From Romanomermis culicivorax (lineage: Eukaryota > Nematoda > Enoplea > Mermithida > Mermithidae), in assembly GCA_963922205.1 (NCBI GenBank), contig CAWUHX010000020.1:1-64000 (forward strand): DNA of 64,000 bases, in the 5' to 3' direction. The translations under genes and the position numbers were made by a program. Positions 458 through 59,522 of this stretch are shown here, one piece after another (position 1 is the stretch's first letter; each line of letters starts with the position of its first letter). Below the pieces are notes generated by a model. The model was not told where the DNA came from. It was given only the letters and a program-made list of their open reading frames with translations, and searched no databases.

Positions 458-1325
458 GATTGCGTATTGCTCCTTTTTATAACTGTCCATGTTCTTAGAT
501 CTGCCTCAATTCTACGTTCCATTAATTAACGGAACTGTGCAAAATTGCGCTATTAAGAAATCTGTGACGAAAAAGCGTTCAGTGAAAGAAAAGCGTTCCT
601 GTGTGAGCAAGTAAGCACGAGCACTTTCCGTACTGTGTAAAATCGTTTCAGCACAGTTGCTCTTAATTTTTCCTAAAGGTTTTTCAAGTACAACAAGGTC
701 GTATTCACTAGGAATGTATATCGTACTTTTTGACCGATTTCAGGATTTTATTTTTCATTTTTTCTCCACAGGCCAATTAGCTCATAGGATCAAAATTTTA
801 TAGGCCAATCCGAATGTCAACGAGCCAAATTTAAAATGTTTGTGAACAAATGTGGCGGTAAAAACCATTGTTTCAACAGATTTTTTAAAAAACACGCTTC
901 AAAATCACAGTAGAAGCCCATATAACGGATCAAGCATTTTGAATACATTTTCGGTCACACACCGAATAAGGCTCACATATAAGATCAGTAATGATATGCA
1001 TTACAATTTCAGTTAAAATATTCAATGTTATAGTGAGGCACTACATGTTCCTCTGTCTATTCTTCGTCTATTGAGCGAAATGCTCAAATAACAACGTATG
1101 CAACTTTTCTGCTCTACTGATAGCAACTCAGCTTTTATAACAAATAAAACATTGCGCATTAGCATGATTCCACCAGGGACAGGCGAGACCAATTTTGCAA
1201 CAGCTGCCGTTTTAGTTGATCCAAATTCCTGTCACCTCTTTGGTTCCGGCACAATATTTTTTTACATAAGTCATGCGACATCAACTTGTTGATTCGACCG
1301 AACCAGTGTTTTTTTTGCACGAGGT

Positions 1326-1472
1326 GTTTTGCATAGTGCAAAAAACCCCGATTGAGGCAGTTTGCACACGGTGTATCGCGTAAAATCGACATTTCCTGGG
1401 GCTTTTTAGTGGAAAAAATTTAGTCCGCCCCCCTCATGAAAAAATCCGACGCATGGCCCTGGTACAGATGAT
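1326..1472 (+). repeat. Second, truncated copy of the 299-457 MITE
   Basis: This stretch repeats the right part of the 299-457 element: GATTGAGGCAG, GGTGTATCGCGTAAAATC, then AGTCCGCCCCCC, ATGAAAAAATCC and GGCCCTGGT occur in the same order. The left terminus is not clear. No open reading frame of interest overlaps it. Confidence 0.7.
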
Positions 1473-2857: not shown

Positions 2858-3785
2858 CAGAGGTCCCCAAGGTCGAAAATTTAGGTAGGGGTAAAATCGT
2901 AAATTTTAAGGGTAGTCCCCTACTTTAAGCTTTTTACAGTCAAAAAACATTAACTATTTCAACTCCATTTTCCAGCTCCCAATCATACAACTTGAATGCA
3001 CTAATTATACGTACAGAATAGTCACACTTTGACGATTGTCGTGTCAACTGATACCTGCACATTTCAAGAATCAAGCACAACATACTTTTGAAAACATTAT
3101 TCGAACCAGCATCTTCAGCAGTATGGGCTTATTCCATCACTGATAAGACTTGGAACAGTGCTTCCAATTGAAAGTCCTGATGCTGAATGTGGCTTTAGTA
3201 TTATTAATCCCATTAGATTATGAACTACGAGTTTGAAACCAAGTACCACTCATGATCCACGTCAACAGACCTCACATGTCTCAACACATAGCAGGAAAGT
3301 ATGCCACAGCTTGGGTAACCATATGCGCACAGAAGACCCAACGCAGAAGCGGGGAAAAGGAAAGGAGAGCATGAAGAGGCAGAATTTTAAGAATATGATG
3401 TTTTTCTTCCCAAGGGGCGATTTTTTGATTAATCACATATACATAAGTCATTATTTCATCTCCCAATTATATATAAATGATTTCCTACAAGTAGTATATA
3501 TTAACGTGCTGATATCCTTTCCCAAAAATCGCTATAAGGCACAGAAGTTGCATACTTTCCCATTATTCTTTGCTCAGTAAATGTGTCAAAAAGACCAGTG
3601 AGTAATTCCTCACAATCACACATTGTGCAATTTTTCTCGAATTACTATGACCTACTGGGGAGAGGATGAGGTCTACCGAAATTTTTTGCTATAGTGAGCT
3701 GTTTTTATGGGGGTAGTAAACGAATTTCCAAATCTAAGACCGGGGTAATACCCCCCCCCCCCATACCTCCCCATGGGGTGCTCTG
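2858..3785 (+). mobile_element. Decayed hAT transposon
   Basis: The ends are CAGAGGTCCCCAAGG on the left and the inverted CCATGGGGTGCTCTG on the right. The flanks are GATTGAAC (2850-2857) and GAATGAAC (3786-3793), a 7 of 8 match as expected for an old hAT target duplication. The interior holds a relic of a hAT transposase C-terminus (3105-3390) and a C run near the right end. At 928 bp it is an internally deleted, inactive copy. Confidence 0.75.
3105..3390 (+). pseudogene. hAT transposase C-terminal dimerisation-domain relic
   Basis: One frame reads YGLIPSLIRLGTVLPIES, then PDAECGFSIINPIRL, a stop and TTSLKPST. This resembles the C-terminal block of hAT transposases and their domesticated relatives (pattern LP, then E or C, then GFS, then N-I, then R-x-L). 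The stop is TGA where CGA (Arg) is expected. A frame change follows, after which a second frame reads LMIHVNRPHMSQ, which fits the next part of the domain. It is therefore a pseudogene fragment with at least one nonsense and one frameshift mutation. It lies inside the hAT element 2858-3785, which supports the assignment. Confidence 0.65.
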
Positions 3786-6900: not shown

Positions 6901-9900
6901 CTTGAAGCTGCATTATAGATCTTTTCTGACAGTTGGGGTTTTTGGCGAATAAATCGACAATCTGGTCCCATGCTTTCTTTTTTGCTTGAATGGTTGTGGA
7001 ATCAGTTCGCTTGTTTTCGATTATATTAACCACTTGTCCCAGACATTCCATCAAAAGATGAACTTCTTTATCAGAAAAATTTGAATCTCGACTTTTTCGA
7101 CTCGTTTTTCAGTTGTTGACAAAGGCACAAAGACAATAAATTTTTACGATAAATGTAAATAGCGCAAGTTTAGTCTGAGTTTAACCCGTGCTAGAAAATC
7201 TAGTACTAGCACGTCTTTTGGAATAACACTTTTGATTTAGCCCGGGCTAACTAAATCTGCGGACAAATGGACGATTACCTAGCCTGTGCTAAGTCAAAAA
7301 TTAGCCCTAGCCTAGCCCTAGTCTAGCGCTCCTTTAGGTATTTGGCCCTAAAGGTCGGTTTATACAGCGACATTTTATGCTACATGTATGTTGATGGACA
7401 TATATGCGACATGCGTATGTTAAGTAAAATCATTAGGTGTGAACAAGCGCGATAAGCCCGACATTCAGTTTGCTGTTTCGCTAAGCCGGCTATTTTAGCT
7501 GACATGCACGCGCCGGTACATGTAAGGGCTATATGTAAAGTCCGATTCGCATGGCGACATATCACCCGATATATATGATCAAGCCTGCAGCCCGAAAGTT
7601 TTTTTTTGGGGGGGGGGGAGTAAAATTGGCATTTCTGACTTGACTTGAAAAAAACCAAAAAAGATTTGTCTTTTTTAACACTTCAAACATTCCGGGGGGC
7701 ATGGCCCCCAACCCTCCTGCCTACAGGCCAGTATATGATGCAACATGTATGTAGGGTTCAATGTCGCCTGTCACGATTACATGCACCGGAACATACAAAT
7801 AACATATAAATGCCGCTTTTATGTCGGCTAACATAGCTGAGCGAAAAAACAAACTGAATGTCGGGCTTATGTTGCACTCGTTCAACCCTGATGATTTTAC
7901 TTACATAAGCATGTCGCTTATATGTGGGGACATGAATTTTGCATAAAATGTCTCCGTAACCGGCTTTTAAGTCATGACAGACGACATTTCACTCGATGTA
8001 CATGTTGCAACATGTATGTCGAATGAAATGTCGTCGTGTGAACTGGCCTTAATAAACGAAAGTTTATCTCTTTATGGCAGTGTTTCAACTTTCATGATTA
8101 TAGTGAATACTAAATGGCTATAGCGAAAACTTTTTCAATATAGAAACCTATGAAATGTTAGAAAATACATTGTAGGGCCAATTTGTAATACTGTTGATTC
8201 AGTTTTTTGCCGAAAAGTAATGGTATCAAATAATTAAATTATACATTCACCTCATTCGAAAAAATTAGATTTTCGCGATATTTCATAATGAAGTATCGAG
8301 TTTTACTTACTTTACATGAGATAAAGCATTGCAGATGCATTAAAGCAATCATAACTGAGAAAGGAATGTGCGAAGTGAGGCAGAATTTTCAAAAAAATTT
8401 TGACCATAATGAAACGCTCAAGAATGTACTTTTTCCGGCCCCAAAATTATTTTATTCTAGTTCGGGGACCGAGCCAAAATTTGTTTCCCATTGCCCAAAT
8501 CAATTCCCAAGAAGATTAATTTTGATAAACAATAGAAATCGTATTCCTGATATTTTTCGCACATGATATAGTGAGGTGTAATTTATCAGCCGCTTAGACG
8601 GCACAAATTATGTGTCCTTCAAACCAATTTTTTGTGAAACGCTTAAAATGTGAGGCACGGAAAATTCCTGAACTTTGTCGAATCTGGTGGCATCATTTAT
8701 TTCTATATGTTCTATATTTCAGTATATGTTCTAAATTTCAGGTTAATCCCGATGCCCATCTGCGATTCCAAATGATCGATGCGGTAGATGCCAAAGATTT
8801 GTACGATAATTTCGTTTCATTAATTACTTATTTGCTCAACCAATTGAAAAATTGCAGACGATTCTTGAAAGTGCGACGTTTTTGTACGCTGCAAAAGTTT
8901 GACTTACTTATTTTATTAAACTTTAGGAGAAAGATGACGCCAACGAAAGTTACGTTGATCAGAATTTTCAATCTTGGTCAACGGCTTGTGCGAACGTCTC
9001 TCACTGCATAGAGACCATTGTTTCTTGCTTACTGTTAATCTTCCAGTGGTAGGTTCCCAGCATACATGTAACGGAGCCCTGAGGTCTGGGGGGGGGGTTG
9101 AGCCACTTTTTTGGGGCGGGGGGTCAGTAATTCCCAAAATTTTGGGGGAGGGGTCTCTGAAGGAAAAAAATTCGATTTTTTCACGAAAAAAGTCCGAAAA
9201 ATGGTTCAAGAAATAGTAATTTTTGTCTAAAAATGATAAAAAAATGTATTTATGGCGCGAAGCGCCGAGAAAATTGATGTTTATGACCATTTTTTGTTCA
9301 AAAATTGACATTTTTCATCAAAAAATTAACATTTTTCAGTATTTTTCCGACCAAAAGTATGGGGGTCCCTAGGGCTACCGTATGGCTAGCCATAGGATTG
9401 GAAAATCCTGGGGGGGGCGGTCGCCCAATGGCTAGCCATATGGTCGACGATTTCTGGGGGGGGGGGGTTCCCATAGCACTTCGCCCCCAATTACATGTAT
9501 GGTTCCCAGGGTTTTTTTTTTGTACATGACCCATTTGCACACGTACAAACGGCAGCCAATATTTCATTTGTATAATTTTCACATAGCAAAAATAGGTATA
9601 ATTAAGTAACCTGTGTTCCTCTACATCATGTCCAAAGACTAATAACCAAATCAGTGTAATTTTCAAATTTTATTTATACACTACGAAAGAAGATTCATCA
9701 AAATTGAACAAAAAATTGGAATTTTCGAGTTTCAAGTATAATTTACAAGCATTGTGGAACAAATTTTCTAGAAAACTATCCAATAGCATAATGAATTTGA
9801 ATTCGATGATAAATCGATGGTTAAGTCCTCTATGATGACAAGTGAAAGCCCAAAAAACATGTTAATCTTTCCGCCGCGCAGCGCCGGAAAAATTTTTTGT

Positions 9901-12900
9901 GTACTGATATTCCTTGACGCTGGAAAATCAATTTTCCAAACATTTATTGCAAGAGTTAGATTCGAATTTTGTGTTTAAATGTTATTATTTTTTAGAATTT
10001 TATTTTTTGAAAAATTTCAAAACTCGTAATTTATTTGCTAACTCTCATGAACTTGGCCGAAAAGATATGAGTGGAAGAGTTGAAATTTCCAAAAACTACT
10101 TCCATGAAGTTTCCGAATTGATCTTGCGTTAAGAAAGAGATAATCGCTTCAAAAGGTTTAGAAACTTGACGTATTGATCTTTCTCAAAAAATGTTTCAAG
10201 GAAAAACTGTGAATCTTCATTAAATATCAAGATAAAATATTGAAGATTACCACTTAAAACATGAGATAATATGTTTGAGATGATGAAAACTAATCAAATG
10301 ATAGATGAAGGTAGACATTCTGAAAGCCGTGTCTGAGCTAGGAAATACACATTAATGATTATTAAATTTATTACCGGCGCAAAGCGCTGGAAAATTTTGA
10401 GGGGAAATAGCCGTTTGCACATGTACAAATGACTACCTCAATTTCGTTTGCCCCCAAAAATTTTCATTTGCCTCCGGCTGGTCGGTTCACTCACATTAGT
10501 GACCGTAATCACCAAGATAGATGGGCCTGATCCTGGGGTAAATACGTCATTTTTTGCTAGTGTCGCCATGTTTTGTGAGAACAGAAATGTAAACATGTGA
10601 CAAATTTATTCACGGATAACGCTATTCTGCCTTCGTCAGTACGGAACGTATATACTTTTTCATCTTTTTTGTTAGGAAAGGAACCGATGGAAAAGCGAGC
10701 AAAGAACAAACCAAACTTTTGCTGAAAATATTAGCCAACTTCTTTTGCAAATCAAATACAACACAAACCGCTGGCAATGTGGCAAAGTGAGTTAAATTTA
10801 AATTGATCGCGTTCATTAAATAAAAACATATACGCTGAAAACCTCCGCTAGCTAAGTAGCAGCTGTTTGATTTTCCAGTTTTTATACCATTATTCGTGAT
10901 ATGACTTTCTTCATGCAAACTTCTTTCTAGCCTTTCTTTATGCCCGCCTTTTCTATAGTTGCTTAATTTTTTCCAAAATCGCACAAAAAATGGCTTAACC
11001 AAGAAATTTAACGTCACTCATGAAAGCTCCAAAATTCATATAGTTATACAACTGTTTCATCTCCACTTACAATTTCGCTGGAAAAAGGCTGCTCAAAAAA
11101 AGACTCTTTAGTTACGTTGGATTCTTCAGTATCGTCGACTGCTGTACTGCATTACATATGTTTTTTATCAAATGTCATATTAATGGTCATACCTGTGTGC
11201 AGTCAGTTAGCCTGAGAGGGTAAACTCAAATTTTTTTTGGTAGTAAATATATATTAACTGTTTTTTTAAGAAAACCCATGCAAAGGAAGCTTAAATATTT
11301 TAGTAGTACCTGGGATGCCATCAGAAAACTGCGAGTAGAGTAGCTTCTGAGTTGAAAAAACTTATAGCAATTCACATATAGTTAAAAAAACAGGCAGCAA
11401 ATGATTGCCCACCCAAAATCCATGGGTTGTAAGTAAATTTCGTCGAGCCTGCTGGGATGGCGTAACCGATACTCTTACCATATCTCCAATGCACAGGTAT
11501 GTGATAGTCGATTATGCCTGTTTGGGCTAGGTCTTCTCCATAAATATTATTGTAACCTACCAACCGGGTAATGTTTTATTTTTAAATATCACGTTAACCA
11601 TGGATCTATTCTAGTCTTTGTCTTAAATCTCTGAAGCCTGTTATGAAACTCCAATAATCTGGTGCGTTAATGTTACTATTATTCAATCTTGATAGGGATG
11701 GGCCGGGTATCCGGATCCGCGGATATCCGCCTAAATTTTAGGAAAAATACGAAAATGCGAAAATACATAAAAGATTATGGTATTTTCAGTGTATAAAAAA
11801 TTTCTTCGTACAAAGACTTTTTGGCCGATCTTTGTACAGGCACAAAGAGCCTTGTACAAAAAAAACACTGCAATGGTAGCAAAATTATACTTGAGAAACA
11901 GTAATTTTTCAACAGTAACGATTTTTGGTAGGATCATAAATTTGACCAGCACCACTCAATAGCTGTTCATAGGGGACACTTTTCGCTGGTGCTAATTTAA
12001 AATTACTCTCTGCATGAAGCAATTGTCCAGAGACGTTTGAGATTCAAGTTCATGCTCTAATTTGGTTTTTGAGTTGCTAGGTTCATTTTTTTGGCTCTCT
12101 TTAAAGAAAGCACAAAAATTAATTCTTTAACATGACAATACCAGTAGCAATTTGTTCCACAATTACTTCTATTTTCTTTATCTTCCTTTTATTAAGCCGT
12201 AAACTGCTTATAGTCGTATATTGCCATGTGTTTCCTCTCCAAATGTTTTCTTTGGCATCCAGTAGCACAACCTTTTCTAGATAACTGTATTCTGCATTTA
12301 TTGCACTTTGCCTTTTCTTCATCATCTGGGGACACTGTGAAGTAGTCCCACACTCTGCTAGTTGAAGAAGAACTTGAATCCGTAATTTCTGAAAAAAGTT
12401 TCTATTTATATTCATTTCTTTTCTGATGAAACCAATATTAGTCTAAGCATGAATACAATTTAATAAATGAAAATTACTAATTAGTACATGTTAACTATTT
12501 CAGTAAACGAACACCCCAATCATTAATAATCTATTAATCTATTGACACCAATGAATATAAATTCATACAACTCAATTTTAGACAAGTTAGACATGGTACA
12601 TATACTTATTGAAAGATCCGGATCCGGTCGGATCTGTTCCTCAAGATCCGGATCCGCTGAACCAAATATTTCAAGATCCGGATCCGCTGTCGCCAAAAAA
12701 GTCGATCCGGCCCGTCCCTAAATCATAAAGATGTATTCATAATCTACCACCCTCGCAAATTTACAGCAGCTCCAAATTTTGGTAGCTGTTTCTCTAGATT
12801 CGAATTCCGTATGTTTAGAATCGTAGCGGAAGAATTGATGCTGTATTCGGATGTGTGTCAATCAATAATTAGCTTAAACGAGCTTCTTCAAATAATTTGC

Positions 12901-31400: not shown

Positions 31401-34400
31401 TTTCAACGAATTAGCTTGTTTGAATTTTGTGTTCTTGATAGATAATTACTATATAAAATAAGAAAAAAAGCGTGATGATAAAATTGAAAAAATGAAAATT
31501 GAAATGAATATTGATTGAATAGTGTGGCTAGTTTGTGTAAATTATAATTGAATTAGCATATTCTTGGCTTAATTACCGAATTTTGGCTCTTAGTGCGGCG
31601 TGTTTTTTCCAACAAATTTTTCCCCAAGCGGGGAAAGAAAGACCCTAAAAATTTTCCGCCAAAGTAATAATAAAACTGAATGAATATAGGGTATAAAAGC
31701 ACTGAAACACATTAAAATTTGATAAATTGATAAATTTTATATAATGTTACGAAGCGGAGTGCATTCAAGTTTAAAATGCTACATCTAGGGGAAGTTGGAT
31801 TATAACTTTTTCCCCGTCTGGCTAATAGTGCTAAAAGTTTTCCTTTTTTTCCAAAATAAACGTTTTGGGGAAAAACACGCTGGTTTGGTGTAAAAATGCT
31901 CTGTTGACATGTTCCGGGTGGGGTGCACTGCATATTCTTTCAGAGATCGAATAAAAAGTTTTTCAAAATTTGCTCTTTTGGATTTTATGGACTTTTTGCT
32001 GGGGTTTATTGTGGGTTTGTACTCATTTCGAGACACTAGTAGGAATGGCACTAGTCAAGTTTAATGCCAGGCCAGGTAGTCACAACTGCTACTTATCGAC
32101 TGACCTTCGTTCGATTGATCGTTGCTTGGGCAATCAGAATTTGGCTTACCATTGAGCTTAGGCTTAAGGGTCATTTATACTTGCCTTTTTCGGCGGAACG
32201 GAACGGAAATAAATCGACACAACGTTTCTGAACGAAAGGGAAATTTTCTTTCCATCGGTTCGGTCAGGGGCTATCATCCGTCATTTTCTAAAAAATTGCA
32301 GTAACCCTCTCCGATCGAAAGTTAATTTTCAGGCTGAACGTTCCGAGCTGTTGGCGATCGGTTCCGTTCCGTTCCGCCGAAAAAGGCAAATATAAATGAC
32401 CCTTTAGGCTCTGACTTAGGCACAATTTACTTATGTGTATATTCTGTATAGTGTATATAAGTTCCAGCACTAAACTTTATGAGCGCCATAGGAACTATTT
32501 GAAACATGATTAGATACATAAAATTGAATCAAATCCACTTAAAATTCTATTAAAATAATACGTAAAACTTATGACTAGTTCTGCCGATGAGCCACTAAAA
32601 AATTAGTTTTCAAAAAGTGCAACTTTTTGGGCAGAAACAAGATTAAAATGGCCTAATATGTACGATGATTTTAAGTATAATAAATCATTTGAAAGTTTTA
32701 TAATTCAAGTTTATAACAAAAGAAATGAAAAGTTTTTGTAAATTTTTTTTCTTCTGTTTCTTTTCCTTTTTTCGTTTTTGTAAACGTGAGCAAAAAAAAC
32801 CAAAGTTAGATGATTAAAATCCAAGAAACTCAAAACCCAAAAAACCTATCTTTTCCAACCCTGACCCTCTTACTCTTGATCATTATCATCAAACTCAGAT
32901 GAGAATTCACCTTGGATTGAAGTCTACGTTTTAGCTCTCAACTAAGCAGGCTTATTATAAGTATGCAGTGTTTTTTCTACACAATGCAGACTTTTTAGGC
33001 TTTGTGTAAATTTTTTTTGGTGATTTCTGCACTGGTGCAGAATTGTTTGAGTCCTTTGTTTGATCACATATATTCTTCTATGATGTGTCAGTCATTGATT
33101 TTGAACCTTTAAAATCAATTATTTCTTATTTTATGATTTTAAAATGCCTAGTAAAATGCTATAAATTCGTTCAAATTTAACATTGAATTACTCTTTCAAT
33201 TTGCATTTTCACTATATTCACTTTTATTCTATTGTAGCAGGCAGTGTTTCCCCCTAAATTGTTTTTTTTCGGAAAAAATTTCAGAAAAGGAAACAAAATT
33301 TGGACTAGAAAATTTTGGGTTTCTGGTAGGGCTGTTTCGATCACAGAATTTTAGTCATTTCGAGTTCGAGTTCGAGTTTGCTCCTTTTGCTTTTCCGAGT
33401 TCGAGTTCGAGTTTAACAATTTTTCTGAGTCGAGTTCGAGTTCGAGTAATTCACTATTGTATATAAGCATCCATTTTGTTACATAAATGCCGGTCAATAT
33501 TATTATGCACATGGTCTGGTACAACTGAACTACATAGAACTGTTTAGCATATGTCATAGTTACTAGGTATAGAATTTTATGCAGTCACTATTTGTGTCAT
33601 ACTTCCAGGTTGAAGCAGATCCTATTTTTAATCAAATGCATTATTTTGTATTACCACACCAATTATACGTTTTATCTATTTGAGCAATTTTTGACTTGAC
33701 ATCATTAATAAAATGCCTAGAAAAAGTATTATTTGGGATGGCTTTGAAGAAATTGTTTATCAGGCAATCAAGCAGAACGTCTATTGTTTTTCAAGTTGAA
33801 TTTGATTGAAACAAAATTCAAGTATTGATTCATTGATAATGAAAAACGTGGTTTGTTAGACGAATAAAATGTTTGGGAAATTATGTTACTTATGACATAT
33901 CTTTATCTTAAACACTAAGCAGGATTTCTTAATTTCATTATATTTTAAAGTTTAAACTCGAAAAGAACTCGAAATAATGGTTGAAAAAAATCGAGTTCGA
34001 GTTTTAAACTTCAAAGTTTTCGAGTTCGAGTTGCCCAAATTGTCGAGTTTTAATCGAGTTCGAGTTCGAGTACTCGAAACAGCCCTAGTTTCTGGTATGG
34101 AGAAGATGCATTTTGGTGTATTTTAGAAGGTCATAATCTCAAAATTTTCCAGCGCTCCGCACCAGTTATAACTTCCATAAACATTATTATGTATTACCTA
34201 GATCAGGCGCGGCTTTTAGCATGTCTACCTTCATTTATCACTTTATATATATAATAGATTTCATCATCTTAAACGTATTATCTTATGTTTGTCTCAATTG
34301 GTTATCTTCAATATTTTATGATGATATTTAATGAAGATTCACATTTTTTTGAGAAAGATCAATGCATAAAGTCTCTAAACCTTTTGAAGCGACTATTCCT

Positions 34401-36976
34401 TTCTGAACGTGAAATCAATTCAAAAGCTTCATGGGAGTAGTTTTCGGAAATTTCTACTCTTCTTACTCATTTCTTTTCAGTCAAGTTCATGAGAGTTTAG
34501 GAATAAATTACTGGTTTTTAAATTTCATAAATAATAAAATTCTAGAAATTACAACTTCTGAACACAAAATTCGAATCTAATTCTTGAAATACATGTTCGG
34601 AAAGTTGATTTTCCAGCGTTGGATAGTTTGATGGAAAATTTGTTCCACAATGCTTGTAGTTTAGACCTTGGTCAAACTCGAAAATTTCGATTTTTCCCTC
34701 AATTTGGATAAATTAATGGCTCTGAAAACACCAGAAGGTTTGAAAAAGTTCAAGAACATATAAATAAAGAATCTATAAGCATTTCTAAGCGAAAAAACGA
34801 CTTCAGGAAATATGGAAAAAATTTTTCTGGGTGCTGAAAAAACACTGAGTATCGACTAGAATTAGGATTTGGAGGCTTATAAGTTGGAGATTTTGTGTTG
34901 TATTTCTGCAAGCACTGCAAGCTGAGGCTTAGGCTTCATTTGAGAAGCTTCTAACTAAATTTTTAAATCTTTTTAAAGTTAAAAAATACATGTTTAATCT
35001 AGTTTGATCATTGAAGTTTGAAACCCACAATTTTCTGACAGTATCATTGGACAATATTTTATGTGTGCGATATGACTTGGCTTTTAATAATCAGAGTTGT
35101 TACTTTTTTACTGTAACAAAACCTATGTTGAAAAAAATTACGTCGAGCATGTTTGATCATTTAAACAGTTCGATGCAGCAATCGGCTGAATATGATGATG
35201 AAGATGAAATTATGCAGCTAGTAGCTGAATAAAGCTGTTGATTCTTGATAAACTTATGTTTGATCTATTTTTTACCTATGAATTAAATTTATTCTATGCT
35301 TTTAAAAATTGGGGGTTTTTAGGGGTTTTCAGAAAATTGTGAGGTTTTCTAGGGTTTTTTTGGAACGATTGAGGTTTTTTGGCGGAAAAATTGGGGTTCT
35401 TGAAGGCGGGTACTTGGCAACACTGTCTAAAATGCTCTGAAATGCATCTCCCCAAATGGGGAAAGTGCCCAAAATTTTTCACCCTTTTCCGAGTTTTTCC
35501 CCCCAAAAAGCACGATTTGGAAAAGAAAACAGTGGCGCGGAGCGCTGGAAAGTTTTTAAATTTTGACCTTCCAAAGTTCACCAGAATACATCTTTTCGGT
35601 TTTGAATTCCCGAAAATTTTTGCCACATTGCTGAATTATTTTTCCCTCAAAAGACCCTCTTCGAGGAAAAAACCCCGGACAGAGCTAGTTTTGAAGAAAT
35701 CGGCTATATAGTTGATAACATTCAGGTTATCTACTGTTATTCAGCGCAGAATTGCATATAATGTATCGATTGCGGCATGTAGAACCGCAAAAAGTATTCC
35801 ACTCGAGAAGTCCGGGTCCGTAAACTGCACTAAACCGCAATGCGGTTGCGGGTCGCCACCCGCAAAATTTTTTTCTGGTTGCGGGTGACTTGCGGGCTGC
35901 ACTGTTTTATGCCCGTTGCGGCCAAGTATGCCTACGGCTTTAAAGTTTCATACGTAGTATTTTTTGTATAACTTCGAAATGATTTGCACAAAGCATGATA
36001 AAAAATATCACTTGATGAATCCATAAATATTTGATCCCACCGTGAAATGGGAATGTGCTCGAAAGAGTTACAAAACAGGCTGTACACAGTCTGATTTTCG
36101 TAGAAAAATTTTCTGCTTTCGTTTTTCTCACTCATTTCTAACAGATGTTGTGGTAAAATGGAGAAAAAGCGAACAAAAGCTCTGGCAGAAAATTACGGGG
36201 ATAGGTTTCATTGAACCTAGTTTGCTGTCGAAAAGTGTTTCCGAACGAGGTCTGAAAATTACATGTTTTTAATCTTAGTTGAACAGTCTCAGACTCGGTT
36301 CAAGTAAAACTGCGTTTCTGTAACTGCAAAAATTGTCAGGTCGAGGTCAGACTGTCTTCCGGAACTATCGGATCTGCGCTGTTCAAAAACACGAATTCAG
36401 ATGGATTATAATTTTTCCTTTAATCGATGAGCTGAATGTATGTGCAACATACATCAAGAAAAAAATCAATTTTCAGCTGAATTTACATTTTCATTGAGCG
36501 CTTGAATTTCATAGTGAAATATGTTCTGTCTCGTACCGGGAATATTTACTCATCGCAGATTGATTTTCCGAAAATGTTTCAGTTCAGTATATTTGCAATA
36601 GTGGTTTCTGAAAAATTCAAGTGAACAATTTTTTGTTTTTAGCTTAACAGATGACATTAATATGCTGCGAGGTCATAGCATTGATTTCTACGCTGAAATA
36701 GAAATGTATCGTCGTGAAAATGAGATTTATCGTCGGGAAAACGAAATTTTAAAAAATGACAAACAATTCTTGGAAGAAAACAATGAAGATTTACAACACG
36801 AAAACGAATGCTTGAAAGCAAAGATTAACGAGTTAGCATCGGATGACCTTGTCGAAACTGTCTCCTGTTTGGAAGCAGAACGACATATGCTGGATATTTG
36901 CGGCAATATATTCGACGTTTCGGCAAGCATCGATGGGAAACTGTCGTCTACGGAAGATTTTCCGGTAAATTTTTAG
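27608..36976 (+). CDS. C/EBP-like bZIP transcription factor
   Basis: Seven exons (27608-27827, 27978-28073, 28467-28576, 28812-28946, 29104-29240, 30680-30877, 36643-36976) join in phase to a 409-residue protein, so this is likely a complete coding sequence. The N-terminal 230 residues are low-complexity, rich in S, P, Q and acidic residues, as in activation domains. Residues about 253-275 are the DNA-contacting basic region (KRDKNNDAVKRCREKKKRE). The leucines at 286, 293, 300 and 307 form the zipper, which spans the exon 6/7 junction. NNxAV is the C/EBP hallmark, but CR in place of SR is more like Fos/Jun, so the subfamily is uncertain. After the zipper come a tandem MYRRENEI/YRRENEI and a further charged coiled coil to about residue 345. 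An AG exists at 27597-27598, so a 5' non-coding exon is possible. Intron 6 (5.8 kb) is packed with nested transposons. Confidence 0.85.
28390..28435 (+). repeat. (TA)n microsatellite in bZIP intron 2
   Basis: An A run is followed by about 20 TA dinucleotides, about 30 bases upstream of the acceptor for exon 3 (28467). It is simple sequence and likely length-polymorphic. Confidence 0.9.
29662..30502. mobile_element. Long-TIR element (MULE-like) inserted in family B
   Basis: The left arm contains ACTTATGCACTTTATGGCC, TATCGAATT and AACGTGTAAAG; the right arm has the inverse (GGCCATATAGTGCATAAGT, AATTCGATA, TTACACGTT). It is flanked by ATTTTTCCG on both sides (29653-29661, 30503-30511), which fits the uninterrupted family B sequence. 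A 9-bp duplication with long arms is MULE-like. A related copy is at 13255-13745. Confidence 0.75.
29811..30114. mobile_element. GC-rich PIF/Harbinger MITE
   Basis: Termini AGGCCCTGTCATACTTCACC and, inverted, AGGCCCAGTCATACTTCACC are flanked by TAA at 29808-29810 and 30115-30117. Subterminal blocks of GCGCGGCGCCGC repeats are self-complementary and make 304 bp of unusually GC-rich DNA in an AT-rich window. The paralogous locus near 13403-13420 lacks it. Non-coding. Confidence 0.85.
31596..31881. mobile_element. Probable hAT-type MITE, TTCCCC word variant
   Basis: The left side is GCGTGTTTTTTCC, then TTTTTCCCCAAGCGGGGAAA and GACCCTAAAAATTTTCC. The right side is TTTTGGGGAAAAACACGC. The order of T run, inverted word, GACCY and A/T run matches the ends of 57713-58659, but with CCCC/GGGG as the word. 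No matching target duplication was found, so the borders are approximate. Confidence 0.5.
32167..32403. mobile_element. PIF/Harbinger MITE
   Basis: Inverted ends AGGGTCATTTATACTTGCC and GGCAAATATAAATGACCCT are flanked by TTA (32164-32166, 32404-32406). Next to each end is TTTTTCGGCGGAACGGAACG or its inverse. 237 bp, non-coding, inserted in the hAT element 31281-35425. Confidence 0.86.
32966..34847. mobile_element. hAT-like element, TGCAGAA word variant
   Basis: It opens CAGTGTTTTTTC and closes GAAAAAACACTG. TGCAGA and TTCTGCA words recur near the left end, as in the related left end at 43266. The interior 34160-34690 is the inverse of 57945-58530. The flanks (TAAGTATG, AGTATCGA) do not form a clean duplication. 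It is split by the hAT element 33327-34087. Confidence 0.6.
33327..34087. mobile_element. hAT element with CGAGTT-repeat ends
   Basis: Inverted ends TAGGGCTGTTTCGA and TCGAAACAGCCCTA are flanked by GTTTCTGG on both sides (33319-33326, 34088-34095), a perfect duplication. Arrays of GAGTTCGAGTTC lie near both ends and are in inverse orientation to each other. 761 bp, no transposase left. Removing it restores a sequence like 43560-43600. Confidence 0.9.
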
Positions 36977-42900: not shown

Positions 42901-45025
42901 ACAGTAACCAGAGAAGATCTGGCTGCAGTAAGGTTTTTTGCATTCAAAAGCAAAATTATTGCGGTTATCATATGCTAGACCTTCATATTTTCTAATAAAC
43001 CCATGCTGATCGATATGGTATGGAGTTTTGACAGATTCTACAAATAAGAGTATCAACAAAAAAAACTTTTGAAGGGCTAATATTTGAATAAAAGATGCTA
43101 AATTATGGCATCACGCTAGTGATCGACCGGAGCTCCGGCTCCGGTAAGTCCGGCCTATTTTCTGACCTCCGGCCTCCGTGCCAGAGGTACTCTCTAAAGT
43201 GACCGGTGGTTTTTATTAGGTTCATTCTGATATAATAGATGATTAATCACATATTTGTTTTACTGCAGTGTTTCTTTTCGGCACAGTGCAGAATTTTCAG
43301 GCTTCGTGCAGACCTTTTTTTGTGATTTCTGCAATGGTGCAGAATTTTTTTGTCATGTTTTTTAGTCATGACCACATATACTCTTCTATAAGGTACCAGT
43401 CATTGATTCTGAACTTTTAAAATCAATTACTTTTCTCATTTCAAGATTTTAAAATGTCTAATCAACAGTTACTGTTTTTTCTCCAAATCGTGCTTTTTGG
43501 GGGGGGGGGATTCGGAAAAGGGGAAAAAACTTTGGGCTCTTTCCCCATTAGAGAAGAAAATTTTGGGGATGGGATACAGAAAAGATTCATTTTGGTGCAT
43601 TTTAGAAGGTCTTATCTCAAAATTTACCGGCGATTCGTGCCGATTATAACTTTGATAATCATTACTATGTATAACCTAGCTCAGGCTTTTATCATGTCTA
43701 CCTTCACTTCTCACTTAATCTATAATAGTTTTCGTCTTCCTAAACGTATTATCTCATGTTTTAATTGGTAATCTTCAATATTTTATCTTGATATTTAACG
43801 AAAATTCAAATTTTTTCCCTGTCACATTTTTTTGGAAAAAGTCAATACGTCAATTCCTTCACCTTGCCATGTTCTTCAACCAACTCGCCTCCTATTCACT
43901 CAAGAAATGAAGCTGACAGCAGTAGCAGTCAAGGTGAAAGTAGTGATGATGAACTCAGTTCGTCTGGAAATGAATGGTGTAGTTGGGAAAATGAAATGTT
44001 CATGAAGTTCAAGTTCAGGTACCATATTTGTAGCACTATATTTTATTATATCTCCGGCCTCCCGCCGGAGGTAAAATTGGACCCCCGGTCGATCGTTACA
44101 TCACGCACACGGATTTCGTTTCATTCCTTTTAGAAATATGCATAACTAACTCTTTTGAAGTTAATCATTTTGAATTTTGGAACACAACAAAATCGAGTGA
44201 AAAGAGTAATAGTTTGAAAGTTTTACACAGCAGATACTGTAGCAATATGTGTACGAAACTTGCAGTCAAAAACCTATACTCCATTCATTTTCAAATGAGC
44301 CTCAGAATGCAAAAAATGCAAACAAGGCTGTGGATAACCATGCATCCATCGTGTGCAAAAATTTTATTTTTATAAGTTATTCCCGGCTGTGGGCCCCATA
44401 CGCAGGTTGCTTATTATTTGCATGGACATATGGTTTTCTTTCTGAGGCTCATTTGAAAATAATAGACTAGAGCAGATAGGCTTTCTCAGAAACTAAACCT
44501 AGCCGTTGTAGCTTTGTATGATTAGATATGCTATATTACCCTATACATATGTACAATAGTTATGTACGTACAAATAACTCTATAACCTCATATCGGCCGG
44601 CACAAAATAGAAATAATCGTAAGCAGGAGGAGGCGCAATTTGATCCAAAAAATCTTTTTCCGTTAGACTAGGAGGCAATCGACGAACAACGACCTGAATT
44701 GTGTAAGACAATTTGGGTTAGATCTCGAGAAGTATGAATATCTCTGAACCATGTATATTTGCATACAAAAGCTGATTTTTTGCGTTTCAACATCGATAAA
44801 GGAATGTTCTGAATATTATCTTAATCCCTCCAATTCTAAATGTTTCCACAATAGACTATAATGAAAAAAGAACCCATTCTCAGGAAAATTAAAATTCTTA
44901 GAAATCAAGAATCTTGTTTCTTGGATCCTGCACGCAGCAAGCTTTACTTTTGTCGATACGAATTTTTTCCCAGTTTTCCGACTTTCGTCATTCTCTTTCG
45001 ATTTTTCTTCACTATTTTCGCCCAT
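39919..45025 (-). CDS. UPF3: UPF3, regulator of nonsense transcripts 3
   Basis: UPF3 links the exon-junction complex to UPF2/UPF1 in nonsense-mediated mRNA decay and shuttles between nucleus and cytoplasm. Nine exons on the minus strand (45025-44948, 44693-44587, 42824-42718, 42472-42377, 42311-42201, 42140-42070, 41907-41758, 41334-40954, 40011-39919) join in phase to 397 residues; human paralogues are about 470-480. Residues 27-150 are the UPF2-binding RRM-like domain (VVVRRLPPSLTEKDFLDQ, SYTRAYISI, ERFDGYVFVDAKG, YPAVVELAP). Exons 6 and 7 encode the charged K/E/R-rich helix. The last exon encodes the exon-junction-binding motif (DKPSIPLYTPGQRRKQ). The start is the first ATG of exon 1. A possible read-through of exon 8 would stop at 40903, but the GTAAGC donor and the conserved last exon favour splicing. 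Intron 2 has a hAT insertion and the last intron a tRNA gene. PCYT1 lies upstream on the same strand. Confidence 0.93.
40060..40133 (-). tRNA. tRNA-Arg, anticodon CCG
   Basis: The minus strand folds into a full cloverleaf: acceptor GGGACTG with CAGTCTC (one G-U pair), D stem GCGA/TCGC with GG in the loop, anticodon stem TCGGT/GCCGA around TTCCGGA (anticodon CCG, reading CGG), a 5-base variable loop, and T stem GCAGG/CCTGC around TTCGAGT. The discriminator is G and there is no intron. The internal B box GGTTCGAGTCC is canonical. A T5 run about 10 bases downstream (40046-40050) can act as the RNA polymerase III terminator. It sits in the last UPF3 intron on the same strand. Confidence 0.95.
43117..44098. 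mobile_element. hAT element in UPF3 intron 2
   Basis: Ends TAGTGATCGACCGG and CCGGTCGATCGTTA are flanked by CATCACGC on both sides (43109-43116, 44099-44106), a perfect duplication. CTCCGGC-type words flank both ends. Inside is the left end of a CAGTGTTT element with TGCAGAA words (from 43266), a stretch shared with 34160-34690, and a short serine/aspartate-rich frame (43870-43990). No transposase core. Confidence 0.87.
44286..44461. repeat. Short inverted-repeat element in UPF3 intron 2
   Basis: CATTTTCAAATGAGCCTCAG and its inverse CTGAGGCTCATTTGAAAAT bound a 176-bp segment. Target duplication unclear. Probably a MITE of undetermined type. Confidence 0.6.
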
Positions 45026-53625: not shown

Positions 53626-54738
53626 CAGGCCTTTTTTTGCACAGGTTAGGTTGCAATGTGTAACTTTGGAGAAAATTTTGATTGCCCACTCTAAAATCGA
53701 TAAATTTGCTTTAATTTATCGAAAAACCATCAAAAGTTGGTTTTCTTGTATTCGATTCGTGTCAGTTTTAGGTTTGCAAAACCCTATTTCCTGAGTTTAA
53801 GGGAGAAAAATAAAAAGTTGGTATGAGTGACTTGCTCGGCGCATAGCGCCGAAAAAATTGAACTTTGAGACTTCTAAAAAAGTTGGAATCCAGCGCATTT
53901 TTCGGAAACTATCGATGATCCATTGTGATCTTCTCGCCATTTGTCGAAAATTTCAGCGCGTAGCACTGAAATTTTTCTGGGTTTGGGTATTTTAGAAGGC
54001 TGGAAAAATTGATCTTGCCAGCATGAATTTTTCAGACAAAGGATCCGATATTTCAAGAAATTCGATGAATTTTCAGTCGAGCAAACTAAATTTCAAAAAT
54101 TAGGCAATGAACCAAGAATTTAGATTCTCCAATCAGCAAGAATTCCTAACATTGTCCTAGGCTCAAAATGTTTTATTTTCTGTCAAAATTTTTTACACTT
54201 CACAAAAAGATTTTGGGTAGAGAAATCTTGGTTTTAATCAAATTTGTAAAAAAACCATGCAAGATCAAACATTCATTCAGGATATGTTGATAGTTAAAAG
54301 CTTCAAGCATAAGCTAGAATGATATTTTCTAAACGCACACTAAAACTAATAAAAAACTATAAATGAATTGAAATCCTGCGCCGAGCGCCGGAAAATTGTC
54401 AGTAATTTTCCATTTTACAACGCATAAAAACGCACTCTACAGCCTAACCAAAAGACCTGTAATCGGGTGGGTTGGGGGGACCCCCCCCCCAACTCGGCCA
54501 ACCCTATACCCAATCCCCCTAACTTGGAAAAAATTGGCAAAAAAGTGCCTTTTTGGGGAAAATTTTCGAGTTTTTTCGCGCCCCCCCCCCAGATTTCGGG
54601 TTCAACCCCCCCAAACTGGTCGGACCTCTTATAGGTATGATTAAAAGGAAAATCAGGCCTCAAGTTGCACTGTGCAACTTTGCCGGAAAAATTGTGTTGC
54701 ACAGCCCGGACTTTGGTTGCTGTGTGCAAAAAACCCTG
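53626..54738. mobile_element. hAT-type element, GTTGCAC word variant, copy 1
   Basis: The left end is CAGGCCTTTTTTTGCACAGG followed by GTTGCAATGTGTAAC. The right end is GTTGCACAG, GTTGCTGTGTGC, AAAAAACCCTG. Flanks CACCTAAC (53618-53625) and CACCCGAC (54739-54746) agree at 6 of 8. GC hairpins are at about 53837, 53955 and 54379. A family E unit (54455-54640, G and C runs) is embedded. Non-coding. Confidence 0.7.
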
Positions 54739-54829
54739 CACCCGACTGGTCGGACCTTGCAGGTATATGGTTGCGTGGGGGAGGGGACAGGTTCGAACAT
54801 TTGAGTACTAAGTCCGACCGAGCTGGAAA

Positions 54830-55625
54830 TAGTGCCTCACACTTTCAAAATTCTAGGACCCGGGTACCCGGTCTCTAGGGTACCCGGGTTACCCGGGTAT
54901 TTCGAGTACCCGGGTATACCCGGGTTCTATATGCAAGTATTTAAAAAGTCAGTGAATGAACGCACTCCATGAAAATTTTCAGAAAACTCATAAATTTTGA
55001 GGCATGAGCCTTGCAAAGTGCTACTAAACAAAAGTTAGGAAAAACCAATAACATATTTTAGTCAGACAAATTTTTTTTTCAAAAAAAAAATTTTTCCTTT
55101 GAAGAAAATAAATATTTCAAAATTTCTTACATTTTTGAGCAAATTGTGGTGACCTGGTCATGCATCACAACTATTTGATGAATCCATTTCCAAACTAGAT
55201 ATCCCACTAGGTCTGGGGTTAACCGTCTCTACCGGCTCATCATCATCGATTTTTATCTTATACACAATGCATCCCTTCAACTTTTATTGTTTTCATACTG
55301 TATCGAGTACCGATATTTCACACAGGCATAATTTCTCGAAGACTTTTTTATATTTCCGTTTCGTGCTTCATTGTTGAAACACATAGATTTTTTGTTGCTA
55401 AAAATACGCTACAGTGGCTTTTTGAGAGCCATAAGCGGCCTTGTTAACACGTTGAGCAGGTAAATGCACTGAATTAATAAAGAAAAATACGTTCATTCAG
55501 TGTATCTGCACATAAATACAAGTAATAGTATATAAATATTCCGTTTATACAATATCTTGTTGAGACCCGGGTAGCACCCGGGTTTCATTCAGAAAATTGA
55601 CCCGGGTACCCGGTGTGAAGCACTA
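54830..55625. mobile_element. hAT element with ACCCGGGTA words
   Basis: The ends are TAGTGCCTCACAC and, inverted, TAGTGCTTCACAC. It is flanked by GCTGGAAA at 54822-54829 and 55626-55633. ACCCGGGTACCCGG words cluster at both ends. 796 bp, no transposase recognised. Its right target copy is also the left target copy of the next element. Confidence 0.88.
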
Positions 55626-55633
55626 GCTGGAAA

Positions 55634-57070
55634 CAGGTTTTTTTGCACACGTGCAACCAAATTTTTTCTGCCATGTTGCACAGTGCAACTTGAGGCCTAA
55701 CCGCTAGTTTGATTAGGTCATTGGGTTTTCTGTCCAGAGACGCATTTTCATGCGTTCTAAAATGGAAAAAAAGTGACAATTTTCCGGCGCTTCGCGCCGG
55801 GTTTCAATTAATTTATGATTTTTTATATTATTCTAGTGCGCGGTTATAAAAGGTCATCCTAGTTAGTATTTGTAGGTTCTAATTATCACCATATTATGGA
55901 TAAATGTTCGATCCTGTATTGTTTGTTGACGAATTTGATGAAAACTAGCATTTTTATCGGTCATTTTCCCAAAAAATTTTTGCCATCTTCATAAAAATTT
56001 CGACTTTCATGTGATTAAAACATTTTGAGTGTAGAAAATTTTGCCGATTGAAAGATCCAAATTCTTAGTCACTTGCCTAGTTTTTGAATTTTAGTTTGTC
56101 CGACTGAAAATTCATTAGAAGAAAGAAAGAAATTTATTAAATGCGAATAAGTTACAAGTGTAAATACGAATAATACAGAAAAGCTCATGGACGTGACAAA
56201 AGCACGTGCGAATTGAGCTTTAAAAAATGACTTAATTTAGACCGAAAACAGGGCATATTTTTCCAACAAATGATATCATTGGGTAAGGAATATAAACATC
56301 AATATTTCGCAAGCAAAAATCATGTTTTAAAGCATAAGAGTTATATTTCGATTCATACAATTTAAATAAGTTGGACGCGCGATAATTGAACGGACTCAAG
56401 GTGAAAAATAAATCAGGTGAAATAACTTTAAATTTCAAAATTAAGAACATGTAAGATAAGTCGATACACGTACGTCTAAATGCGAGGTCATCAAGGCCAG
56501 ATTTGTCGAGGCGCTCCTTATAGCTTAAACCTTTATGACCGAAAAGTCTTTTTGTAAACCTTCGTTGAACTCTTTTTACCAATTTAGTATCCCCAACGAG
56601 ACAAGGATTCCAGAGTCGTGAACATAGGATTTAAAAGCCCTGCCACCTTAGATGCTTTTTTAACCACATAATTACAGTGGGCAGTTACAGACAATTTTTC
56701 ATTGAAACTTAACACATTCACTGAGAAATGCAACATTCTGCCTGGGAAATAAAAGGTAAAAAGATTCATTTTCCAGCGTTCTAGAATATTGAAATCCAGA
56801 AAAAATTTTCGGCGCTACGCGCCGATCACATTATTCTAGTCTACTCATATTAATCTTTTCATTTTCTCCCCAAAACTCAGAAAATGGAGTTTTAAATGTC
56901 TAAAACTGACGCGGATCGAATGAAATACAAGAAAACTAGTTTGCGATGGTTTTTTCGATAAATTTAAGCAAATTTATCGACTTTAGAGTGAGCAACCAAA
57001 AATTTATCTGTGCAACCAAAATTTTTCCCCAAGTTGCACATTGCAACCTGGTCTGTGCTAAAAAACCCTG
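55634..57070. mobile_element. hAT-type element, GTTGCAC word variant, copy 2
   Basis: The left end is CAGGTTTTTTTGCACACGTG then GTTGCACAGTGCAAC. The right end is GTTGCACATTGCAAC, CTGTGCTAAAAAACCCTG. It is flanked by GCTGGAAA (55626-55633, 57071-57078), perfect. GC hairpins are near each end (55784-55800 and 56808-56824) in opposite halves. A CR1-like LINE fragment is inserted at 56110-56785. Confidence 0.87.
56110..56785 (-). mobile_element. 5'-truncated CR1/L2-like LINE, reverse-transcriptase C-terminus
   Basis: The minus strand reads RMLHFSVNVLSFNEKLSVTA and HCNYVVKKASKVAGLL, then after a frameshift near 56583 continues TKLVKRVQRRFTKRLFG, YKERLDKSGLDDLAFRRTC. VQRRFTKR followed by Y-x-x-R-L and RR-x-C-x-D-L is typical of the region after the reverse transcriptase in CR1/L2/Jockey-type elements. 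The 3' end has a short TTTC repeat (AAATTTCTTTCTTTC). It is truncated and frameshifted, hence dead. Confidence 0.78.
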
Positions 57071-57109
57071 GCTGGAAAGAAGGTGCTCCATAACCCTCCC
57101 CCCCATTAA

Positions 57110-57712
57110 AGATACGAATTGACCGCGGATCTTCATACCTGTAAGAGATCCAACCAGTTGGGGAGGAGGGTAAACCGAAAATTTTGGGGTGGGGGTCCCG
57201 AAATTTCCAAAATTTTGGGGAAGTGGGTCGAAAACACCAAAAAAAGTCGAAACAATTTCGAAAATTTTCCCGAAAAAGCCACTTTTTTCCCAATTGTTTC
57301 TAGTTTGGGGACATACCTGTAATTGGGGGTGGGTTGGGGGACCCCCTAACTTGGCCAACCATATACCCAACCCCCGCCAGTTTGGAAAAAATTTAAAACA
57401 AAAGTGCAAAAAGGTGTATGTTTTTTTGGGAAAAATTTCGACTTTTTTCGACCCCCTCCCCCCAACTGGTCGGACCTCTTACAGGCATGTTGGGTGTGGT
57501 GCGCATACCTGTACTTGGGGGGGCGGGGGGACCCCTCCCCCCCGACTTGGCCAACCATGTACCCAACATCCTCCAACCCCCTCCCCCCCAGTTTGGAAAA
57601 AATTAAAAAAATTTGCAAAAAGGTGTATGTTTTTTTGGCCTTTTTCGGGGAAAATTTCGACTTTTTTCTACCCCCCCCCCTCAAAAATTTCGGATTTACC
57701 CCCCCCCCCAAC
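57110..57712. repeat. Cluster of family E units with CATACCTGTAA ends
   Basis: At least three units lie side by side: one inverted (about 57133-57310) and two direct (57312-57489 and from 57501). Each is bounded by CATACCTGTAAT or TTACAGGCATG and contains GGGTTGGGGGACCCC, AACTTGGCCAACC, ATATACCCAACC and AACTGGTCGGACC. The last unit is interrupted by the element at 57713. The ends resemble family B (CATACATGTAA), suggesting relatedness. The proline/glycine-rich open frames are caused by G and C runs. Confidence 0.7.
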
Positions 57713-58659
57713 CACTGTTTTTTTTCCATGAACTTCTTTCCACAAATGTGGAAAGAGGTCAAATTTTTTTTTCACATGTGGAAAATTTTTTTTTTCGTCT
57801 CAAAATCCTCGTTTTTTCGCTTAAAAATGCTCACAGACGCTTTATTGCACTGTTTTTGAGCTTTTTCAAGCCTTCCGGTGTTTTTAGAGGTTAATTCATT
57901 AAAATTGAAAAAAATTGAAATGCTCGACTTTAAAGCCTAATCTACTAGCATTGTGGAACAAATTTTCTAGCAAACTATCCAAGAGCATAAATTGACTTTG
58001 AATTACATGAGAAATCGATGGTCAAGTCCTCTATGATGGCAAGTGAAAGTCCAAAAAAGATGCTAATCTTTCCCGCGCGAAGCGCCGGAAAAATTTTTTG
58101 AGGTAAGTATTGGCATTCTGCGACGCTGGAAAATTAATTTTCCGAACATTTATTTCAAGAATTAGATTCCAATTTTGTGTTCAAAAGTCGAAATTTCTAG
58201 AATTTTACTTCAAAAATTTTAAAATCTGTAATTTATTTGAAAACTCTCATGAACTTGGTTGAAAATATATGAGTAAGAAGAGTATATTTCCGAAAGATAT
58301 TTCCACGAAGCTTTTGAATTGATTTTACGCTAGCAAAGAAATAATCGCATCAAAAAGCATAGAGACTTGATCTTTGTCGAAAGGAAAAAAAGCGAATCTT
58401 CGTTAAATATCATGAAGATTACCAATTAAAACATGATATAATACGTTCAAGATGATGAAAACTATTATAGATTAAGTGATAAATGAAGGTAGACATGATA
58501 AAAGCCGCGCCTGAGCTACTGAATAAATAATGATGATTATTGCATCTTTTCAATATGAAAACCCCAAATTTTTCTTCCACATTAGTGGAAAGACCTCAAA
58601 AATTTTTTCCACATTCCAGATTTTTTTCCACATAGTGCAAATGTGGAAAAAAAACAGTG
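57713..58659. mobile_element. hAT-type element, TTCCACA word variant
   Basis: The ends CACTGTTTTTTTTCC and, inverted, CACTGTTTTTTTTCC match exactly. Next come TTTCCACAAATGTGGAAAG and GGTC on the left, and CCACA/TGTGG words at four positions on the right (58575-58650). Flanks CCCCCAAC and CCCCAAAC agree at 7 of 8. A GC hairpin is near 58078. The interior 57945-58530 is shared with 9752-10345. Inserted in family E. Confidence 0.78.
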
Positions 58660-58684
58660 CCCCAAACTGGTCGGAGGTCTTAAG

Positions 58685-59522
58685 CAGCGTTTTATTTTTG
58701 TGCACGGACATTTGTGCCAATTGGCACAAGAGACCAAAAAAATTTGTGCCAATGGCACAAAAAATTTTTTTCACTAGAGACATACTGAAAACTACGGGAA
58801 AGTTTTAGGCCAAAAGTTTGATAATTGTTTAACGCATTAATTTTTTGTAAAAATCGTGCCCAACCCATTTTTCAGCTAACCATGTCAGTGAAAAGAGAAA
58901 AAACTGTGCAACAAAGTAGTTCATGGAATCCCAAAAAGAAATGGAACGCTGAGATAATTTAAATAGCTCTAGAATTGTTCTGGAAGTTCAAATTGATTAA
59001 ATTTTCGACTACGAACAAACATCTATGTTATGTTTATGTATATTTAACAACCATGTAAAGACTAGAGAAAATAAAGTCAACAATCGCGTTGATTTTCGAT
59101 CGAAACATTGTGCCAATATCAACGATATCGATTTTTCTATTTAAATCAATCAAACACAAAAAGTAACAATTTCAGTTTTAAATCCGAATCTGACTGAATG
59201 AAGAGAGAATATTCAGAATTTCTTTTCACTCATCAGTCTTGACAGCCTATAAAGTTTGCTGCAACGATACTAATACACTGTTCAAAGAGAAATCGTTCGC
59301 GTTCGGGTCAAATATACGAATAGGAAATATTATATTCATTGATTCGGCGCGAAGCGCCGAAAAATTTTTGCGTTTGCAGCCCTAAAACGTCTAAAAATCA
59401 AGGAAGTTTTATGTTTGATAAGCCAAAAATTTTTTGCCAATTGGCACAAATGCTCAAAATTTTTTGTGCCATTCCAAATTTTTTTGTGCCAAAAACCATG
59501 TTTTGGCACAAAAAAAACACTG
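58685..59522. mobile_element. hAT-type element, TTGTGCCA word variant
   Basis: The left end is CAGCGTTTTATTTTTGTGC and the right end AAAAAAAACACTG. It is flanked by GTCTTAAG at 58677-58684 and 59523-59530, perfect. TTGTGCCAATTGGCACAAG and GTGCCAATGGCACAA lie on the left; GCCAATTGGCACAA, GTGCCATTCC and TTTTGGCACAA on the right. A GC hairpin is at 59343-59357. The centre encodes nothing recognised. Confidence 0.86.

Follow-up and report, generated by a model that had tools for sequence, protein, structure and literature searches.

We analysed 64,000 nucleotides of the mermithid nematode Romanomermis culicivorax (contig CAWUHX010000020.1, positions 1 to 64,000, forward strand; hereafter the window). 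Four hAT-like transposable elements within it, A, H, F and G, carry near both ends a short repeated word that differs from one element to another (Table 1). Their coordinates, termini and 8-bp flanks, as given in a preliminary description of this DNA, can be read directly in the sequence: two pairs of flanks are perfect, one matches at 7 of 8 positions and one at 6 of 8. Among 200,000 draws of random 8-mer pairs from the window, matches this good arose in 0.007% (8/8), 0.09% (7/8) and 0.74% (6/8). F and G belong to one family and lie in opposite orientations. No stop-to-stop frame of at least 150 amino acids lies wholly inside any of the four, and the elements combine this lack of coding capacity with a high copy number, as miniature inverted-repeat transposable elements (MITEs) do.

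Table 1 Elements and element ends identified in the window
Feature	Coordinates	Strand	Word	Remarks
Element A	57713..58659	+	TTCCACA/TGTGGAA	Termini CACTG..CAGTG; flanks 7/8 (CCCCCAAC/CCCCAAAC)
Element H	58685..59522	+	TTGTGCCA/TGGCACAA	Termini CAGCG..CACTG; flanks 8/8 (GTCTTAAG)
Element F	53626..54738	+	GTTGCAC/GTGCAAC	Flanks 6/8 (CACCTAAC/CACCCGAC)
Element G	55634..57070	+	GTTGCAC/GTGCAAC	Flanks 8/8 (GCTGGAAA)
Element B	9507..10476	+	GTACAAA / CATTTG	Right terminus incomplete; intact relative is L024 5379-7254
Element C	34100..34847	-		Left terminus 34847; without clear word; right end lost
Class E right end (CTCCCCAAATGGGGAAAG)	35447..35534	+		In register with A and T right ends; outer word sites decayed
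Element D2	43471..43865	-		Class E right end (terminus ~43471) and interior common to A, B and C
Class D end	32966..33150	+	TTCTGCA/TGCAGAA	
Class D end	43266..43460	+	TTCTGCA/TGCAGAA	
Class K end	11771..11870	-	TTTGTAC	Terminus at 11870
Class J end	1304..1403	+	TTTGCAC	
Small element N	31602..31882	+	TTCCCC-like	

Flanks and insertion sites

To follow the elements beyond the window, we used fetched loci (L numbers) and pattern counts over 359,112,060 bases in 595 contigs of the genome. Ends were grouped by word into classes A (TTCCACA), T (TTCCTCA), E (TTCCCC), D (TTCTGCA/TGCAGAA), K (TTTGTAC), J (TTTGCAC) and G (TTTCGCC, one copy); class G is a label separate from window element G, whose word is GTTGCAC. 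Copies of class A measure 763-1252 bp and those of class T 879-1031 bp. The termini seen were CACTG, CACCG, CAGTG, CAGCG and CAGGG.

Outside the window, 8/8 flanks surround T copies in L003, L011 and L024, A copies in L006 and L001, a B copy in L024 and a J/K copy in L015. Weaker flanks were found for A in L005 (7/8) and L008 (6/8), and flanks of 2/8 for H in L001 and for window element N, with ends as set in this analysis. The elements therefore show the 8-bp target-site duplications expected of hAT transposons. A related empty site is also present: L051 reads GAGGAAATCAAAACTACAAGAG, L005 holds an element between ATCAAAAC and ATCGAAAC, and L051 is a diverged copy of the host repeat that forms the L005 insertion site.

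Two elements (54830-55625 and 55634-57070) adjoin within 54822-57078 in one target: GCTGGAAA precedes the first, separates the two and follows the second. Around the elements occur C-rich repeats whose ends resemble GGTCGGACCTCTTACAGGTATG (54450-54615 and 57130-57720), and A and H lie beside or inside these repeats.

Words are specific to the copy that carries them

The copy specificity of the words, first proposed from the window, held in a larger sample. Within 120 bases of 76 CA[CG][TC]GTTTT termini, we counted on average 1.78 further copies of a terminus's own first word and 0.49 copies of the words of other termini, against a highest value of 0.79 in 200 permutations; these termini come from 357 kb that are biased because part of the DNA was fetched via the word TTCCACA. 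In reversed sequence, 34 termini gave 0.50 own and 0.55 other words. Genome-wide, the TTCCACA pair pattern TTCCACAAATGTGGAAA occurs with at most one mismatch at 3424 places (1721 + 1703), against 1 + 3 for the reversed pattern. The looser pattern of two TTCCNCA words 10-18 bases apart occurs at 3104 + 3109 places and, reversed, at 294 + 302. On the strength of the reversed controls, we rejected the idea that the words merely reflect base composition. Short repeated subterminal motifs of this kind are expected of hAT elements.

Inverted word pairs in local DNA, a sample biased to TTCCACA and counted on both strands, tended to agree at their variable letter. We found 56 concordant and 12 discordant pairs for TTCCxCA (no matches in reversed sequence), 24 and 8 for TTxTGCA (none) and 28 and 13 for TTTGxAC (2). 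The TTCCTCA family looks young: of 1409 candidates for its right end, the best 40 scored include 38 that match over the full length at 96-100% identity, one of them being the query's locus. This list is by design the top of a ranking.

Agreement of words within a copy

We then examined 100 listed genome places with TTCCNCA pairs, all on contigs C1 and C2 and sorted by spacer, of which 42 were of right-end type, 33 of left-end type and 25 of other types. The right-end pairs comprised 24 T/T, 14 A/A, 3 A/T and 1 G/A. Their sites thus mostly agree: 38 of 42 pairs are concordant, against a mean of 21.5 and at most 33 in 10,000 permutations. The spacer tracks the class, reading TTTCGAA in 16 of 24 T pairs and TTCCAGA in 10 of 14 A pairs.

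The stronger claim that all positions of the word change together did not survive. Left-end pairs were 23 T/A, 9 T/T and 1 T/G, so that in 23 of 33 sampled places of the TTCCTCA family, the left-end site lying farthest inside still reads TTCCACA. At the right end of T copies, the inner site is TTCCTCA in three of five and TTCCACA in two of five (the decayed window copy excluded). Inner sites therefore differ from outer ones, and not every site changes with the rest. The A and T words themselves differ solely at position five, in one common frame. In the same frame, class E has TTCCCCA in L041 (inner pair) and CCCCA in the window copy at 35447; its outer sites are decayed.

End frames, interiors and an exchanged end

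We next compared ends with their words hidden, ranking each alignment against 300 shuffles; the figures below give the number of shuffles that aligned equally well. Right ends of A, T, E and class G align with their words in register. With one representative each of A, T, E, class G and H, the 10 right-end pairs scored 0, 0, 0, 1, 1, 4, 4, 11, 11 and 24 of 300. Left ends were more divided: 7 of 14 between-class comparisons scored 0-4 and the other 7 scored 22-211, the poor ones involving classes N and B. The single end layout described for the four window elements accordingly stands in part. A and H share it (right ends 0/300, left ends 16/300; crossed, 5/300 for A-left with H-right and 76/300 for A-right with H-left), whereas the GTTGCAC ends matched A or H well in 4 of 16 comparisons (0, 3, 4 and 13/300) and poorly in the other 12 (32-252/300). 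The J and K representatives resemble each other (2/300), and two further TTTGTAC ends scored 8-32/300 against A and H. One class D end scored 15/300 against L030 and a second D copy 146/300, a weak pairing.

Across several word classes, interiors are 70-82% identical. Within the window, BLAST aligned the A interior (57894-58541) with that of B (9693-10363) at 77.8% identity, and with stretches of 34800-34177 and 43818-43655 at 79-80%. In fetched loci, an interior module running from GGCGCGAAGCGCC to GCATCTTTTC is joined to right ends of A, T, E, class G and B, and also to a TTTTGCAC end (L030) and a TTCTGCA end (L046). Interiors, and end frames for several classes, are thus of common descent while their words differ, and to this extent the original proposal is supported. 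A palindrome like GGCGCGAAGCGCC adjoins ATTTT tracts in the interiors of several word classes (59345-59359, 56810-56824, 58073-58089 and related loci). A scan of viral contigs with the interior gave no matches.

The intact copy at L024 5379-7254, with CCATACGG on both sides (8/8), retains TTCCCTAAATGGGGAAAGAGCC, a remnant of a TTCCCC-type (E) end, just inside its GTACAAATG-type (B) right end. As this junction demonstrates, in some cases the switch of word was part of the replacement of an entire end.

An alignment of 17 rows, 13 of them used and representing four classes, provided a rough comparison of the parts. Between classes, interiors are 63-76% identical, frames 56-63% and words 49-66%. 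Within class A, the identities are 0.68 (interior, lowered by three copies with deletions), 0.90 (frame) and 0.90 (word); within class T, 0.85, 0.81 and 0.94; and within class E, 0.71, 0.66 and 0.62.

Search for transposases

The preliminary description looked to hAT genes for a transposase matching each word. The genome is well supplied with such genes (150 scored PF05699 matches of 1837 candidates), and no transposase could be tied to any of these words in 22 loci (L029-L050). Where a hAT locus could be followed to its terminus, the words are different ones: GGATCCGG in the L029 and L046 types and GGATATCC in the L039 type. L038, L043, L044, L045, L049 and L050 are outside this set. A candidate autonomous element, 4.4 kb between T-type ends on contig C1, was rejected, as the 1.6 kb read (L051) is nested sequence: a frame resembling, by eye, the reverse transcriptase of a long interspersed nuclear element, and an F/G-type element.

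Window positions 54830-55625, 33950-34085 and 11693-12720, together with L039, L046 and L029, represent a second lineage of hAT-like elements, whose termini are TAGNG. Its palindromic words likewise differ by family (ACCCGGGT, GAGTACTC, GGATCCGG and GGATATCC), and BED finger and words are both readable for the L029-type (via L036) and L046-type families. The member at 11693-12720 has TAGGGATGGGCC termini, GGATCCGG words and 6/8 flanks, and encloses a BED finger on the minus strand (12228-12359). Many BED frames of ~60-100 amino acids in the genome share one score of 43.9 bits, as would be expected had a derivative reduced to the finger been amplified; such a derivative might act as a repressor. 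The window also holds a HARBI1-like DDE transposase reading frame (PF13359, 5773-6855), whose best named relative is a Romanomermis culicivorax protein (50% identity, 81% query cover); two unnamed proteins score higher.

Discussion

The interpretation we prefer, and to which we give an even chance, is that these are non-autonomous hAT-like cut-and-paste elements whose words are docking sites of the transposase that mobilises each family, replaced both site by site and by exchange of ends. Two zinc fingers would jointly bind a pair of inverted words, which have A/T tracts alongside and are phased to the transposition complex. If a lineage came to depend on a transposase that prefers a different word, its own words would be replaced. 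This could proceed in place, through point changes at many sites of one frame (presumably from TTCCACA to TTCCTCA, with the innermost site last), or by a second route, the exchange of a whole end. Such turnover may record a switch in binding specificity or an escape from cross-mobilisation, as the preliminary description suggested. We are more tentative about a stepwise walk of the docking sites, in which TTCCTCA, TTCCACA, TTCCCCA and TTCGCC-type words, one letter apart, occupy corresponding sites in a single inherited frame and the inner sites lag behind the outer ones; we consider it possible rather than probable, and the incoherent outer-site words of class E reduce the weight we place on it.

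The proposed architecture resembles a characterised system. Hermes transposase places two BED fingers on a quasi-palindromic subterminal pair and requires an adjacent A/T-rich tract, and a one-base shift of the site pair severely impairs cleavage (PMC10368747). By analogy, the palindromic word pair, the A/T tracts and the fixed place relative to the terminus would suit the needs of such fingers. Hermes is, however, a single transposon with the motif AAGT, unlike the many related families with varied words seen here, to which no transposase is tied. In Herves and other hAT elements, every transposase binds its own short subterminal motif (PMC3143072); these motifs were compared among distant elements, whereas ours vary within one inherited frame. 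Domesticated hAT DNA-binding domains span a wide range of specificities (PMC8097297).

Several observations weigh against docking-site replacement as we have framed it. No CASTG T-run end pair was seen around a hAT gene in the 22 loci, although the 2.9-4 kb stretches may miss ends, nor was a transposase seen inside elements of these word classes; the link between word and transposase is thus an inference. About two families account for the 38 concordant right-end pairs, which therefore speak for coherence within a copy and not for 38 independent changes. Direct repeats agree weakly in local DNA, with 9 concordant and 6 discordant TTCCxCA pairs (9 and 9 on the other strand; 1 and 1 in reversed sequence) and 15 and 13 for TTTGxAC (5 in reversed sequence). 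Class B mixes TTTGTAC and TTTGCAC in one element, the words of the two E copies do not cohere (0.62), and A resembles T more closely in its words (0.66) than in its frame (0.56). In 9 of 10 comparisons, the J and K representatives align with A, T, E, class G and H no better than 42-162/300, the exception being class G with J (19/300). CACTG and CACCG also fall outside what we take to be the hAT terminal consensus. Finally, for five of the six class pairs identity is higher in the interior than in the frame (for A and class G the two are equal at 0.63). This is the pattern of interiors more conserved between families than ends that typifies the coral MITEs (CMITEs), and, rough as the comparison is, it points more to an exchange of ends, or to whole ends changing faster.

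The last point favours an alternative that we regard as rather unlikely, yet as the most serious of those considered: end exchange alone. Here, old families would have kept their own ends and captured interiors by recombination or by template switching in gap repair, with no word changed in place. The E-type remnant inside the B-type end of L024 and the single interior module joined to TTTTGCAC and TTCTGCA ends in L030 and L046 fit this view, as do frames less conserved than interiors. It is harder to reconcile with A and T words one letter apart, and E and class G words one more letter away at the inner pair, in a single alignable frame. The TTCCACA site kept at the T-family left end in 23 of 33 places is, moreover, what change in place predicts.

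We find it improbable that the families are unrelated and converged on one layout, T/A tracts and paired sites being a requirement of every such complex. Most J/K comparisons, 12 of 16 between GTTGCAC ends and A or H, and 7 of 14 left-end comparisons, all with at least 22 of 300 shuffles as good, would be expected under convergence. Against it stand the interior homology across classes and the masked right-end frames of A, T, E, class G and H; for A, T, E and class G in particular, common interior and frame together disfavour it. Less probable again is membership of a different superfamily that also makes 8-bp duplications, for example the P elements, which have a THAP finger. The CACTG and CACCG termini would suit it, and 8-bp duplications do occur outside hAT; but CAGTG, CAGCG and CAGGG termini are found too, in a genome rich in hAT genes. 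Least probable of all, a repressor from the host, or a regulator that the element itself encodes, might bind the word, as VANC does in VANDAL elements, with turnover reflecting an arms race with silencing: such motif turnover is known (PMC5735166), but the words begin beside the terminus and hold a similar position at both ends, as transposase sites do.

Docking-site replacement by both routes would have partial precedents. As far as the sections of PMC2872659 at hand describe them, coral CMITEs are, like these elements, MITE families with a common interior and different terminal repeats; they differ in being piggyBac-like and ~100 bp long with TTAA duplications, and no repeated subterminal word or one-letter series is described in those sections. 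In Arabidopsis, many short motifs of related elements diverge jointly with their binding protein in VANDAL21/VANC, as may be the case here; there, however, the motif spread by tandem repeats and the protein counters silencing (PMC5735166). A common interior with different ends, and concerted motif turnover, are thus already known. A series of subterminal words that change one letter at a time within an inherited frame was not reported in any of the matches listed from the open-licence literature.

To our knowledge, how a transposon lineage reaches a new binding specificity, when many sites must change jointly, is an open question. If true, the stepwise walk would preserve, in nature, a switch in DNA-binding specificity that affected many sites together. 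Thousands of copies, several words in one frame and partly converted ends would make such a change traceable, and a genome containing them would supply binding sites paired with their proteins for experimental tests.

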